Assembly: GCF_009602465.1 (NCBI RefSeq)
Contig: NZ_WBKP01000014.1
Span: 1-64,000, forward strand
Source: Cumulibacter manganitolerans
GTDB lineage: Bacteria > Actinomycetota > Actinomycetes > Mycobacteriales > Antricoccaceae
Direction of reading: 5' to 3'
DNA length: 64,000 nucleotides
In this document: one piece after another, positions 19,918 through 24,343 of the stretch
Layout of the letters: every line of letters begins with the position of its first letter
Numbering within the stretch: position 1 is the first letter of the stretch
Position numbers and translations under genes: made by a program
Notes under the pieces: model-generated
The model's input: the letters and a program-made list of their open reading frames with translations, nothing else
Databases searched by the model: none
What the model was told of the DNA's origin: nothing

Positions 19918-20712
19918 TCAGGGCAGGGCGATCGGCTCTGTGCGGGCCGAGCCCGCGCCTGTCGGCCGCCCGTCCGCCGCCGGACCGCCGGCCACCGGGA
20001 TCAGGTCGGCGATGACGATGGTGACGTTGTCCGGTGCACCCGCCTCGAGCGCCAGGGAGATCAGCCGGTCGGCTGCCTCGTCGATGTCGTCGAGATCCAG
20101 TGCCGCGGTGACGTCCGCGGTGTCGACGTAGTCCGTGAGCCCGTCACTGCACACCAGGTAGCGATCACCGTGGATCCGCATGAGCGTCGTGAACCGGGGC
20201 GTGACTTCCTTGCCGTTGACCGACTTCAGGACGATGTTGCGGTACGGGTGGTGCTGCGCCTGGTCGGCGGTGATGTCGCCGTTCTCGACCATCATCTGCA
20301 CGTAGGAGTCGTCGTGGGTCAGCTGCGTGAGCTTGCCGCTGTCGCGCTGGTAGAGGTAGGCCCGCGAGTCGCCGATGTTCGCCACCGCGATCCGGCGGGC
20401 TCCGAACAGCACCGCGGTGAGCGTGGTGCCCATGCCCTCGAGATCGGGGTCGTGCTCGACCCGGCGCGCGATCTCGGCCGTCGCGGCCGCGGTGGCCTCG
20501 GCGAGCGCCTTGGTCAGCTCGTCGTCGCGCTCGACCTCGTCGAGCGCGGCGAACTGGTCGGCGGTGATCCGCGACGCGACCTCGCCCGCGGCGTGGCCGC
20601 CCATCCCGTCGGCGACGACGAGCAGGCGCGGTCCGACGAAGTAGTTGTCCTCGTTGTTCTCGCGCACGAGGCCCTCATGGGTGCGCGCGGCGGTTCGCAA
20701 CGTGTAAGGCAT
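19918..20712 (-). CDS. PP2C-family serine/threonine phosphatase
   Basis: Cytoplasmic protein phosphatase of 264 residues with the metal-binding motifs of the PP2C/PstP family: VRENNEDNYF (about 15-24), VVADGMGGHAAGE (about 32-44), ANIGDSRAYLY, CSDGLTDYV and APDNVTIVIADL. PstP in mycobacteria has a transmembrane segment and extracellular tail; this protein stops after the catalytic domain plus a 20-residue tail, and no kinase, FHA, rodA or pbpA gene is nearby, so it is a stand-alone phosphatase. ATG 20712 has AAGGAGC upstream. Likely to reverse Ser/Thr kinase signalling; target unknown. Confidence 0.88.
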   Translation of the reverse strand: MPYTLRTAARTHEGLVRENNEDNYFVGPRLLVVADGMGGHAAGEVASRITADQFAALDEVERDDELTKALAEATAAATAEIARRVEHDPDLEGMGTTLTAVLFGARRIAVANIGDSRAYLYQRDSGKLTQLTHDDSYVQMMVENGDITADQAQHHPYRNIVLKSVNGKEVTPRFTTLMRIHGDRYLVCSDGLTDYVDTADVTAALDLDDIDEAADRLISLALEAGAPDNVTIVIADLIPVAGGPAADGRPTGAGSARTEPIALP

Positions 20713-20848: not shown

Positions 20849-21115
20849 TCAGGCGAGCGTGAGGAAGAGCTTCTCCAGCGTCGCCTGATCCTCGGCGCTG
20901 ATTCCCTCGGGGGACGCCAGGCACTGGCGCATTCCCGAGGACACGATCGCGAAGCCGGCGCGATCCAGCGCGCGGTTCACCGCGGCGAGCTGGTTAACGA
21001 CGTCCTTGCAGTCGCGGCCCTCCTCGATGAGGCGGATCACGCCGCCGATCTGGCCCTGCGCGCGGCGCAGCCGGTTGATGACGGGGGTCAGGTCGTCGCT
21101 GTTGAGAGTGACCAT
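20849..21115 (-). CDS. cstR: CstR-like persulfide-sensing repressor (CsoR/RcnR family)
   Basis: All-helical repressor of 88 residues in the CsoR/RcnR family (DUF156). Helix motif RLRRAQGQIGGVIRLIEEG is typical. Cys36 and Cys65 occupy the two conserved Cys positions, but position 61, where copper-sensing CsoR has His, is Gly (SSGMRQC). Loss of that His with both Cys retained is the signature of CstR, which forms inter-subunit di- to tetrasulfide links with persulfides and releases DNA. The adjacent persulfide dioxygenase-rhodanese gene and four matching operators support the role. AGGAG precedes ATG 21115. It is second in an operon with the DUF302 gene, so it is autoregulated if the operators act on both sides. 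Confidence 0.88.
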   Translation of the reverse strand: MVTLNSDDLTPVINRLRRAQGQIGGVIRLIEEGRDCKDVVNQLAAVNRALDRAGFAIVSSGMRQCLASPEGISAEDQATLEKLFLTLA

Positions 21116-21140
21116 GAGGGGCTCCTGGGGGTCGGGCTGA

Positions 21141-21533
21141 TCAGCCGGTGAGGGTGCTGAGTGCGGTGCTGAGCCGGTCGCGGGCGTCGGCCGCGACGTC
21201 GGTGAGGTTCTCGTTGCCGGTCAGGCTGACCATGACGTCGGGATCCATGGCCTCGACCACGGTCGTCGAGTCGTCGACGGCGCGAACGACGACGTTGCAG
21301 GGCAGCAGCAGGCCGATCGAGGGCTCGGCCTCCACCGCGGCGTGAGCCAGCGGCGGCCGGCACGCCCCGAGGATGACCTGGGGCGCGATGTCGGCGCCGA
21401 TCTTCTCCTTCAGGGTGGCGGCGAGGTCGATCTCGGTCAGCACCCCGAAGCCCTGCTCACCCAGAGCGGCACGGGTGGCTTCGACGGTCTCGCCGAACGG
21501 GCGACGAACGGTGGCGGACAGGGCGTAGCTCAT
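21141..21533 (-). CDS. DUF302 family protein
   Basis: Protein of 130 residues matching the DUF302 fold: VRRPFGETVEATRAALGEQG near the N terminus, DLAATLKEKIG, ILGACRPPLAHAA and LLLPCNVVVRAVDD. Two Cys (in LGACRPP and LLPCNVV) are conserved in the family. Its function is unknown, though it is frequently found beside sulfide, thiosulfate and copper genes. GAGGAG upstream fixes ATG 21533. First gene of a minus-strand unit with cstR 25 bases downstream, and directly faces the operator cluster. Confidence 0.82.
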   Translation of the reverse strand: MSYALSATVRRPFGETVEATRAALGEQGFGVLTEIDLAATLKEKIGADIAPQVILGACRPPLAHAAVEAEPSIGLLLPCNVVVRAVDDSTTVVEAMDPDVMVSLTGNENLTDVAADARDRLSTALSTLTG

Positions 21534-21580
21534 GGCGGACTCCTCGATGCGCGGGCGGGCTCTGAGAACGCCCATATCAT

Positions 21581-21596
21581 ATACCGGCTGGGGTAT
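21581..21596. promoter_or_regulatory. CstR operator 1
   Basis: ATACCGGCTGGGGTAT, an inverted repeat ATACC-N6-GGTAT. Lies 48 bases upstream of the DUF302 start, a position suited to blocking that promoter. Confidence 0.75.
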
Positions 21597-21637
21597 GTCT
21601 GCCAGTTCGCGCATCGCGGCGTGCACCGGCCCTACAA

Positions 21638-21653
21638 ATACCCCGTGGGGTAC
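21638..21653. promoter_or_regulatory. CstR operator 2
   Basis: ATACCCCGTGGGGTAC, same architecture with the last base changed; TACCCC and GGGGTA arms are perfect over six bases. Confidence 0.75.
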
Positions 21654-21683
21654 ATCACGAGCCGGCCGGGACCAGTGGCGGAA

Positions 21684-21699
21684 ATACCGCTCCCGGTAT
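21684..21699. promoter_or_regulatory. CstR operator 3
   Basis: ATACCGCTCCCGGTAT; arms extend one more base on each side (AATACC and GGTATT, 21683-21700). Confidence 0.75.
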
Positions 21700-21716
21700 T
21701 ACGGTTAGACGGTCAC

Positions 21717-21732
21717 ATACCCCTGAGGGTAT
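21717..21732. promoter_or_regulatory. CstR operator 4
   Basis: ATACCCCTGAGGGTAT, very close to published CstR operator sequences as I recall them. Lies 56 bases upstream of the persulfide dioxygenase start, suited to controlling the plus-strand operon. Confidence 0.8.
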
Positions 21733-21788
21733 CCGCGCCACTCGGCGGCGGCCCTCGGCACCCGTACGAGACAGCGAAGGAAGTAGCC

Positions 21789-23162
21789 ATGAGTGCAGCC
21801 CCGGTCATCGTTCCCATCGAGACGCCGACGCTGGGTGACCGTTCCTACCTCGCGCACGACGGCGAGGTTGCAGTGGTCGTCGACCCCCAGCGTGACATCG
21901 ACCGTGTCCTGTCGATCGCGGAGTCCGCCGGCGTGCGGATCACCCACGTCCTCGAGACGCACATCCACAACGACTACGTCACCGGCGGCCTGGCGCTCGC
22001 GCAGGCGACCGGTGCGGCGTACCACGTGAACGCCGCCGACGACGTCTCCTACGACCGGGTCCCCGTCTCCGACGGTGACGTGGTCGAGATCTCCCCGACG
22101 ATGCGCGTCCGGGTCATCGCGACGCCCGGCCACACGTTCACCCACCTGTCCTACGCCCTGGAGGCCGGCGATCCGCTCGAGCCGGTCGGCGTGTTCACCG
22201 GTGGCTCACTGCTGTTCGGCGCGACCGGCCGTCCGGACCTGCTCGGCCACGAGCACACCGACGACCTGGTGCACCACCAGTTCGCCTCCGCCCACCGGCT
22301 CGCCGAGGAGCTCCCGGAGCACACTCACGTGCTGCCGACGCACGGCTTCGGATCGTTCTGCTCGGCCGGCTCCACCGGCGACGTCACCGAGTCGACCATC
22401 GGCCGGGAGAAGCGGCAGAACCCCGCGCTCACGCAGGACGAGCAGCAGTGGGTCGCCGACACCCTCGCCGGCCTCGACGACTACCCGGCGTACTACGCCC
22501 ACATGGGGCCCGCCAACAGCGCCGGACCGTCCGGAGCAGATCTGAGCACCCCGGAGGCCGCCGACAAGGAGACCCTCGCGGCGCGGATCGCGGCGGGCGA
22601 GTGGGTGGTGGACCTGCGCAGCCGCACGGCGTTCGCCGCCGGCCACGTCACCGGCACGCTGAACTTCGGCATCGACGGCCAGTTCGCCACGTACCTCGGC
22701 TGGCTCATCCCCTGGGGCACCCCGCTGACGTTGCTCGGCGACAGCCCCGAGCAGGTGGCGGAGGCGCAGCGCGAGCTGGTCCGGATCGGCATCGACCGGC
22801 TGGCCGGCGCCGCCACCGGCAGCCCCGCCGACTGGTCGGACGCCGACCCGGGGACGTTCGAGCGCGCGGAGTTCGCCGACCTCGCCCAGGTCCGCCACCA
22901 CCGGCCGGTCGCCGTGCTCGACGTGCGTCGCTCCTCGGAGTACGCCGACGGCCACATCGACGGCGCGACCCACATCCCGCTGCACGAGCTGCTCGGTCGT
23001 CTCGACGAGGTGCCCGGCGGCGAGGTCTGGGTGCACTGCGCCGCCGGCTACCGCGCGTCCATCGCCGCGTCGGTGCTCGCCGCACACGGGATCCGTCCGG
23101 TGGCGATCGACGACAGCTTCGACGAGAGCGCCGCGGCCGCGGGCCTGCCCCTCACCCACTGA
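21789..23162 (+). CDS. Persulfide dioxygenase-rhodanese fusion (CstB/BlhRh-like)
   Basis: Protein of 457 residues. The N-terminal metallo-beta-lactamase domain (1-250) has LETHIHNDYVTGG, TPGHTFTHLSY and FTGGSLLFGATGRPDL, the ETHE1-type iron site that oxidises glutathione, CoA or other thiol persulfides to sulfite. Two rhodanese-like domains follow: the first (about 265-345) lacks an active-site Cys and is degenerate, the second ends with VHCAAGYRASIAAS, with Cys417 as the sulfur-carrying residue. This is the architecture of CstB and related multidomain sulfur transferases that turn persulfide into sulfite and thiosulfate. ATG 21789 follows GAAGGAAG. Controlled by the operator cluster. Confidence 0.9.
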   Translation: MSAAPVIVPIETPTLGDRSYLAHDGEVAVVVDPQRDIDRVLSIAESAGVRITHVLETHIHNDYVTGGLALAQATGAAYHVNAADDVSYDRVPVSDGDVVEISPTMRVRVIATPGHTFTHLSYALEAGDPLEPVGVFTGGSLLFGATGRPDLLGHEHTDDLVHHQFASAHRLAEELPEHTHVLPTHGFGSFCSAGSTGDVTESTIGREKRQNPALTQDEQQWVADTLAGLDDYPAYYAHMGPANSAGPSGADLSTPEAADKETLAARIAAGEWVVDLRSRTAFAAGHVTGTLNFGIDGQFATYLGWLIPWGTPLTLLGDSPEQVAEAQRELVRIGIDRLAGAATGSPADWSDADPGTFERAEFADLAQVRHHRPVAVLDVRRSSEYADGHIDGATHIPLHELLGRLDEVPGGEVWVHCAAGYRASIAASVLAAHGIRPVAIDDSFDESAAAAGLPLTH

Positions 23163-23207
23163 CCCACCCCACCTTTCCCGCAACACCCACCACGAAGGAG
23201 AACTCTC

Positions 23208-23384
23208 ATGTGCCGTCCCGCTACCTGCAAGGTCTGCGGCAAGACCACCTGGGCCGGCTGCGGCCAGCACGTCGACCAGGTGATGGCCGGCGTCCCCCGC
23301 GCCGACCGCTGCCCCGGCCACACCGTCGAGCAGAAGGACGCCGCCGCCGGCGGCGGATTCATGTCTCGGCTCTTCGGCCGCTGA
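23208..23384 (+). CDS. Small Cys-rich protein of the sulfur locus
   Basis: A 58-residue protein starting MCRPATCKVCGKTTWAGCG. Five Cys lie in the first 36 residues (positions 2, 7, 10, 18 and in RCPGH) plus two His (QHVDQ and GHT), suggesting one zinc or metal site; the tail is Gly-rich then GFMSRLFGR. GAAGGAGAACTCTC before ATG 23208 is a strong ribosome site and codon use is normal. It begins 46 bases after the persulfide dioxygenase gene and ends just before a strong hairpin, so it belongs to that transcript. Very similar short proteins are widespread in actinobacteria as far as I recall, but without known function. Confidence 0.8.
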   Translation: MCRPATCKVCGKTTWAGCGQHVDQVMAGVPRADRCPGHTVEQKDAAAGGGFMSRLFGR

Positions 23385-23390
23385 CCCACC

Positions 23391-23432
23391 CACCGCCGGC
23401 GCAGCGGGCTACCGGCCCGCGCGCCGGCGGTG
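23391..23432 (+). terminator. Very strong hairpin between small protein gene and exporter
   Basis: CACCGCCGGCGC (23391-23402) pairs perfectly with GCGCCGGCGGTG (23421-23432); inside, GCGGGC pairs with GCCCGC around a five-base loop, leaving one bulged A. About 18 pairs in total. It should terminate or attenuate transcription before the TauE/SafE gene. Confidence 0.75.
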
Positions 23433-23530
23433 CCGCCTTGCCCCGATCGCCATGGGCGACGCCGCCCGTGGCGCGCCCCACCTCGCCCGCTGCATCTGCC
23501 GTATCTCACCAGACAAGGAGCGATCCCCTC

Positions 23531-24343
23531 GTGTCACCGCTCGTCCTGCCCGTAGCGCTGCTGATCGGCCTGTCGCTGGGCGCCCTCGGCGGCGGAGGGT
23601 CGATCCTCACCGTCCCCGCGCTGGTCTACCTGCTCGGCCAGGACGCCCGGCAGGCCACCACCGCCTCCCTCGTCATCGTCGGTCTCACGTCGCTGATTGC
23701 GTTGATCCCGCACGCTCGCCGCGGCAACGTCCGGGTGGGGCAGGGGCTGGTCTTCGGCATCCTCGGCGTCGCCGGCTCCTTCGCGGGAGCCGCCGCGTCG
23801 GGCCTGGTACCCCCGGCCGTGCTGCTGACCGCCTTCGCCGCGCTCATGCTCGTGGTCGCGGTCCTCATGCTGCATCGCACTCGCCGGCGAGCCACCGACA
23901 CCGGTCATGCCCACGCCACGGGCACGGCTGCGCCGATGCTCACGTGGAAGCCGTTCACCATCGCGTGGCCGCGCGTCGCGAAGGTCGTCCTGACCGCTAC
24001 GGCGGTCGGCCTGCTGACCGGGTTCTTCGGGGTCGGCGGGGGGTTCGCGCTCGTCCCGGCGCTGGTGCTCGCCCTGTCCTTCTCCATGCCGGTCGCGGTC
24101 GGCACCTCGTTGCTGGTCATCGCCGTCAACAGCGGCACGGCGCTGATCGCCCGCGCCGCCGGCGGCGTCCACCTCGACTGGACGGTGATCGCGGTGTTCA
24201 CCGGCGTCGCGATCGTCGGCAGCCTCCTCGGCGGCCGCATCGCCGGCCGGGTCTCCCCCCAGCACCTGACCCGCGCGTTCGCGGTGCTGCTCATCGCGGT
24301 CGCGCTGTACACCGCCGCGCGCAGCATCCCCGGCCTGTTCTGA
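23531..24343 (+). CDS. TauE/SafE family sulfite/sulfur exporter
   Basis: Polytopic membrane protein of 270 residues with about eight hydrophobic segments and two internally similar halves, each with a glycine-rich motif: LGALGGGGSILTVPALVYLL near the N terminus and FFGVGGGFALVPALVLAL (about 162-179). This is the TauE/SafE (DUF81) pattern, a family that exports sulfite, sulfoacetate or related anions. GTG 23531 is preceded by AAGGAG (23516-23521). In this setting the likely task is expelling sulfite produced by the persulfide dioxygenase. It is separated from the upstream genes by a strong hairpin, so it may need its own promoter or read-through. Confidence 0.83.
   Translation: MSPLVLPVALLIGLSLGALGGGGSILTVPALVYLLGQDARQATTASLVIVGLTSLIALIPHARRGNVRVGQGLVFGILGVAGSFAGAAASGLVPPAVLLTAFAALMLVVAVLMLHRTRRRATDTGHAHATGTAAPMLTWKPFTIAWPRVAKVVLTATAVGLLTGFFGVGGGFALVPALVLALSFSMPVAVGTSLLVIAVNSGTALIARAAGGVHLDWTVIAVFTGVAIVGSLLGGRIAGRVSPQHLTRAFAVLLIAVALYTAARSIPGLF

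Follow-up and report, generated by a model that had tools for sequence, protein, structure and literature searches.

A conserved four-site array of putative CstR operators between divergent sulfur genes of Cumulibacter manganitolerans, with a candidate composite SigR/SigH-CstR promoter in related loci

The analysed stretch of Cumulibacter manganitolerans DNA, 64 kb in length and referred to here as the window, contains two divergent groups of sulfur-related genes separated by a 256-bp intergenic region. To the left, on the minus strand, lie the gene for an 88-residue cstR-like repressor (20849–21115; PF02583, the CsoR/RcnR family, E 1.6e-22) and, as the first gene of the leftward unit, that for a DUF302 protein (21141–21533; PF03625, E 2.7e-23). 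To the right, on the plus strand, the region is followed by the gene for a 457-residue persulfide dioxygenase–rhodanese protein (21789–23162), whose closest solved chains, 3tp9 (E 1.5e-62, residues 24–438) and 3r2u (E 1.9e-46, residues 25–436), both match nearly its whole length; its Pfam matches are to rhodanese (1.5e-15) and to Lactamase_B (0.0036, below the cut-off). Further along the plus strand are a 58-residue Cys-rich protein (23208–23384), apparently part of the dioxygenase operon, and a TauE/SafE sulfite exporter (23540–24343; PF01925, E 2.3e-46), for which the coordinates are those of the scanned stretch and the true start may be slightly upstream. The 58-residue protein matches no family above the cut-off (a weak Pfam hit stands at 0.14), has relatives in 36 of 80 cstR loci and displays a conserved start of the MCRPATCKxCGKTTWAGCGQHVDQV type. 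The initial annotation of this DNA had placed the sites between a cstR-DUF302 unit and a persulfide dioxygenase operon, and that description is accurate.

The intergenic region holds four palindromic sites, to which no strand is assigned: operator 1, ATACCGGCTGGGGTAT, at 21581–21596; operator 2, ATACCCCGTGGGGTAC, at 21638–21653; operator 3, ATACCGCTCCCGGTAT, at 21684–21699; and operator 4, ATACCCCTGAGGGTAT, at 21717–21732. They had been described as identical in form, which is true of operators 1, 3 and 4, each an exact ATACC-N6-GGTAT, but not of operator 2, which ends in GGTAC and thus carries one mismatch (ATACC-N6-GGTAC); the spacings given for them, 57, 46 and 33 bp, are correct. At one mismatch or less these four are the sole matches within the 64-kb window, compared with a mean of 0.20 sites and a largest value of 2 in 100 shuffles, and simulation of the 256 bp between the genes under a first-order Markov model yielded a mean of 0.019 and a maximum of 2 in 20,000 draws, where 4 were observed. 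As judged from the DNA, the four sites are real, beyond chance and conserved. A weak terminator-like hairpin on the minus strand (21661–21642; mean of 0.1 in shuffles) lies over operator 2 and is probably simply the palindrome of that operator.

A consensus scan of positions 21500–21800 identified a single promoter-like site (mean of 0.1 in shuffles), the sigma70-like CTGGCA-N18-TATGAT at 21576–21605 on the minus strand with 9 of 12 consensus matches, which would drive the DUF302-cstR unit. Operator 1 lies within its spacer and has one base in common with the –10 hexamer. The presumed promoter of the persulfide dioxygenase, GTGGCG-N19-TACGGT at 21675–21705 on the plus strand, was located by eye from the alignment, contains operator 3 in its spacer, and is below the threshold of the consensus scan of 21500–21800. 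By eye, a TAnnnT hexamer directly follows the operator-3 column in 16 of 22 aligned relatives, 5 of these 16 being without operator 3, as it does in the window (TACGGT); TTGAC ending near operator 3 is present in 9 of the 22, and the window has GTGGCG at that place. Given that operators 1 and 3 are inside presumed promoters and operator 4 is just downstream of one, these positions suffice to explain why three of the four exist. SigR-type GGAAT-N18-GTT sequences on the dioxygenase side of several relatives (L058, L061, L066, L068, L093 and L096) were set aside; we read this side as a housekeeping promoter because GGAAT mostly falls on operator 3 or on the spot where it would lie, GTT is unconserved and TAnnnT is, by eye, better conserved. 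The dioxygenase side of the window has GAAAT-N18-GTT, one base off the SigR consensus, which was not counted as a box but may be one.

Counted on the translation, the regulator has Cys36, Gly61 and Cys65, as originally reported. It belongs to the PF02583 family and has two conserved cysteines but no His at position 61, the copper-ligand position of the family; its gene is linked to those for a persulfide dioxygenase, a rhodanese and a sulfite exporter, with rhodanese-like genes at a second genome locus, and the adjacent operators are of the ATACCn6GGTAT type found for ScCsoR (three exact, one with a single mismatch). The exact motif occurs four times in the 3.9-Mb genome, three times in the window and once at C80:2165, where a one-mismatch partner lies 21 bp further on (L004:1501–1537, equal to C80:2165–2201). 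Allowing up to one mismatch, the whole genome has 14 places as against 2 for the reversed pattern, and 8 of the 14, outside contigs C14 and C80, are scattered singles. The genome-wide search proposed in the initial annotation placed the sole exact site outside the window in front of a rhodanese-like gene (L004:1563–2177), which matches rhodanese-domain protein models, all below cut-off; a second gene behind the C80 sites (L004:2170–2466) has a Pfam rhodanese domain (E 1.7e-15). This gene pair is likely a second target of the window repressor. Because the exact motif in this genome adjoins sulfur genes only, the protein shows C-G-C, and ScCsoR is published as binding this very motif, an array serving a persulfide sensor of CstR type rather than a CsoR, as proposed at the outset, is the best reading. 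Five single exact motif matches in genome G001, which lacks a cstR relative at E <= 1e-15, were set aside as chance.

To place the array among its relatives, we compared 80 cstR-like loci, chosen as the best among 98 confirmed relatives of the window regulator in named genomes and hence not a random sample. At one mismatch or less, 3 loci had no site, and the largest cluster comprised one site in a further 34 loci, two sites in 28, three sites in 13 and four sites in 2. When up to two mismatches were allowed and one or more sites had to be exact, 6 loci had four sites, 12 had three, 26 had two, 28 had one and 7 had none, and one locus had a five-member cluster with two overlapping members. Since 37 of the 80 loci have one site or none at one mismatch or less, the array is no general need of such regulators. 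The six four-site loci come from Phycicoccus (L058, L059), a Lapillicoccus MAG (L060), Pedococcus (L062), Luteipulveratus (L067) and Knoellia (L069), and their gaps of 34, 45–46 (57 in L067) and 56–58 bp resemble the 33, 46 and 57 bp of the window. They are identical to the window at 49–54 of 64 site bases and 28–43 of 96 flanking bases, a difference that is partly built in because the sites were chosen by pattern. Operator 1 is matched at the same array position in all six (13–15 of 16 bases). The 16-mer of operator 2, including its GGTAC end, is identical in L058, L059, L060 and L062, so that its departure from the motif is maintained rather than noise and the array seems to be inherited as a unit. 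A further set of loci (L061, L068, L072 and L082) has three sites, at positions 1, 3 and 4, and misses operator 2 at up to two mismatches, so that operator 2 is the one that can be dispensed with. Among relatives, operator 3 matches the motif least well, with two mismatches in 4 of the 6 four-site loci.

An order-wide search for pairs of exact sites, with spacings of 30–60 bp allowed and one locus per genome fetched (30 loci, 42 pairs), found such pairs in 30 of 397 genomes of the host's order, its own included, and none with the reversed control. The spacing was 31–37 bp in 36 of the 42 pairs and 55–57 bp in 4. Four sites at one mismatch or less were present in 3 of the 29 pair loci from other genomes (L158, L159 and L161). 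The suggestion that four sites go beyond known loci is not supported by this count together with the 6 of 80 relatives found at up to two mismatches; because arrays of three to four sites occur in other loci, four sites are uncommon but recurrent, not unique. The arrays of L158 and L161 have gaps of about 36/35/21 bp and that of L147 has gaps of 35/56 bp, all near TauE, dioxygenase-like or thioredoxin genes.

We are fairly confident that the adjacent persulfide sensor, a CsoR-like repressor of CstR type, uses the four palindromes as its operators and that they cover both divergent promoters. The analysis established where the sites lie, how they are conserved and spaced, which genes surround them and how the motif is distributed over the genome, and it is from these results that we infer binding, the response to persulfide, promoter positions and operon membership. 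Without persulfide, tetramers of the reduced repressor would sit on operator 1, within the spacer of the DUF302-cstR promoter, and at the persulfide dioxygenase promoter on operators 3 and 4, which lie in its spacer and start region; operator 2 would serve as an auxiliary site between operator 1 and operators 3–4. Bound repressor would keep both divergent operons and the separate rhodanese operon silent. Upon modification of Cys36 and Cys65 by persulfide, the repressor would leave the DNA, and the dioxygenase, the exporter, the DUF302 protein and the repressor itself would be made, resulting in self-limiting induction.

It is very improbable that the array serves a copper sensor of the CsoR/RicR type. 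The regulator shares family-level similarity with such proteins (PF02583), and RicR is its best NCBIfam hit, at 40.5 bits against a cut-off of 175; all three of its NCBIfam hits are far below cut-off and none is to CstR. RicR and Geobacillus CsoR sites also resemble the ATACCn6GGTAT motif (PMC7533328), so that, taken by itself, the motif would also fit a copper sensor. Several features argue the other way. Copper-sensing CsoR and RicR have a Cys-His-Cys copper site, and the window protein has Gly, not His, at position 61. The regulator gene is adjoined by sulfur genes, and of the two CsoR-family genes in the genome it is the other one, on C5, that encodes C-H-C as read from its ORF, with no exact motif in its 3.2-kb locus. 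For the persulfide sensor itself, tetramers on operator 1 could contact those on operators 3–4 (or 2), so that both operons switch jointly and sharply. Operators 1, 3 and 4 do lie near the same helical face, with distances of 103, 33 and 136 bp corresponding to 9.81, 3.14 and 12.95 turns at 10.5 bp, and operator spacing is conserved. We nevertheless consider such looped or cooperative repression unlikely: at 57 and 46 bp (5.43 and 4.38 turns) from the sites on either side, operator 2 faces roughly half a turn away from them, relatives with two sites (28 of 80) or three (13 of 80) are common, and the pair at 31–37 bp could follow from promoter geometry alone. Operators on two separate promoters explain the number of sites without looping.

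The origin of the locus bears on a further alternative, in which the array is a passenger of acquired DNA, with one or two operators acting and the rest decaying. In five Dermatophilaceae-type genomes the best matches of the dioxygenase are 78–83% identical, and four genomes of the host's own family have no match at E <= 1e-40. The neighbouring PP2C gene (19918–20712) has the opposite pattern, with 77% and 68% identity in two same-genus genomes and best matches of 40–47% in the five Dermatophilaceae-type ones. The repressor is 73–91% identical in 38 of the 80 loci that are the best of the 98 relatives (L058–L095), which presumably belong mostly to Dermatophilaceae-like genera, although L070 is labelled Acidobacteria; it is 67% identical in one of two same-genus genomes and about 35% in the other. 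The sulfur locus (20849–24343) was thus probably acquired horizontally from Dermatophilaceae-like bacteria, and the PP2C gene beside it looks native. The SigR-type box and the thioredoxin of many relatives are also absent here, as would suit a decaying passenger. However, three of the four window sites are exact, and operator 3 is a better match in the window than in all six four-site relatives, which makes decay of the array quite unlikely.

The relatives differ from the window at the cstR side. The published SigR consensus is GGAAT-N18-19-GTT (PMC9205884, PMC10012870), and a box of SigR/SigH type, GGAA(T/C)-N17-19-G(T/C)T, lies 0–3 nt before an operator on the cstR strand in 35 of the 80 loci, with a spacer of 18 nt in 33 of the 35; a strict GGAAT and GTT box abutting the operator is found in 29 of the 80. 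Shuffling of the upstream 36-mers (all 378 sites, both strands) gave an expectation of 0.41 as against 35 loci, a control that ignores relatedness and is not read as a probability. On the opposite strand the composite was found in one locus, L132, where that strand also encodes a second cstR. As judged by homology hits, the 35 composites precede thioredoxin-cstR (19), thioredoxin-DUF302-cstR (12), DUF302-cstR (3) or cstR (1), so that a thioredoxin leads the operon in 31; the thioredoxin frame itself was read in L058 and L094. Examples among L058–L135 are at L094:3508–3552 and L071:2987–3031. A strict-pattern scan of the 397 order genomes found the composite in 10 and the reversed control in 0. 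All 10 have an 18-nt spacer although 17–19 were allowed, 9 precede cstR or thioredoxin-cstR, and the tenth, L175, precedes a gene 35% identical to the dioxygenase. Against generality, 6 of these 10 come from one genus, and at these settings 45 of the 80 loci have no composite, nor do 387 of the order's 397 genomes.

At the cstR side of the window, no SigR-type box is present on either strand, the thioredoxin is also missing, and the strict composite pattern has no match in the window genome, although C39 encodes a SigH/SigR protein that scores above the family cut-off. The left promoter of the window would be a derived form, lacking the box and the thioredoxin and carrying a sigma70-like promoter. 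We regard it as an even bet that many actinobacteria possess a two-input switch in which the operator closest to the repressor gene is built onto a SigR/SigH thiol-stress promoter, and that the window represents this switch after horizontal transfer, rewired to the housekeeping sigma factor and without thioredoxin. In such a switch, disulfide stress would supply the sigma factor and persulfide would remove CstR, both inputs together being needed for full thioredoxin-(DUF302)-cstR expression, and the divergent persulfide dioxygenase would answer persulfide alone via the housekeeping sigma factor. The composite promoter of the relatives hints that, in actinobacteria, signals of disulfide and of persulfide stress converge on single promoters. 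Within the portions of the literature covered by our search, including those of PMC9952706, we found no description of a composite SigR-CstR promoter or of SigR control of cstR, and the single paper there that names both CsoR and SigR does so in unconnected places; this does not allow the absence of trx-cstR from the published SigR regulon to be claimed.

Beyond this locus, the relatives provide a natural series of operator regions with one to four sites for one kind of persulfide sensor, which suits asking what operator number buys. The window array is also a doorway to the composite SigR-CstR promoter of many relatives, in which one site on an apparent stress-sigma promoter points to a combined stress switch.

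The ATACC-N6-GGTAT motif is already published as the operator of ScCsoR from Streptomyces coelicolor, which binds the 16-bp palindrome ATACCn6GGTAT. The Scpdo promoter holds two copies of the palindrome, and the motif is found between csoR and rhod as well; with polysulfide, binding drops strongly, and release needs both cysteines (PMC7533328). With an operator of known type and a repressor of known kind, the window array is ordinary in kind and slightly unusual in number. The ScCsoR/Scpdo circuit (SCO0618-0621) shares with the window the operator motif, a two-Cys CsoR-like repressor, a persulfide dioxygenase with TauE, and autoregulation, but has two Scpdo sites and a separate csoR/rhod region, whereas the window has four sites in one divergent region and a DUF302 gene (PMC7533328). 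The CstR/cst operon of Staphylococcus aureus likewise has a CsoR-family dithiol repressor of sulfide-oxidation genes, in which a C31-C60' interprotomer disulfide lowers DNA affinity (PMC5480029). YrkD of Bacillus licheniformis is a CstR-like repressor of a sqr and pdo cluster, released by elemental sulfur; it binds two intergenic regions, a single fragment in each, unlike the one array of the window (PMC9918477). Finally, TTHA1953 of Thermus thermophilus resembles the window regulator as a cysteine-controlled CsoR-family protein acting on sulfur-oxidation genes, and differs in its operator, TACNNTACNNNNGTANNGTA, and in having targets distant from its own gene (PMC10318464).
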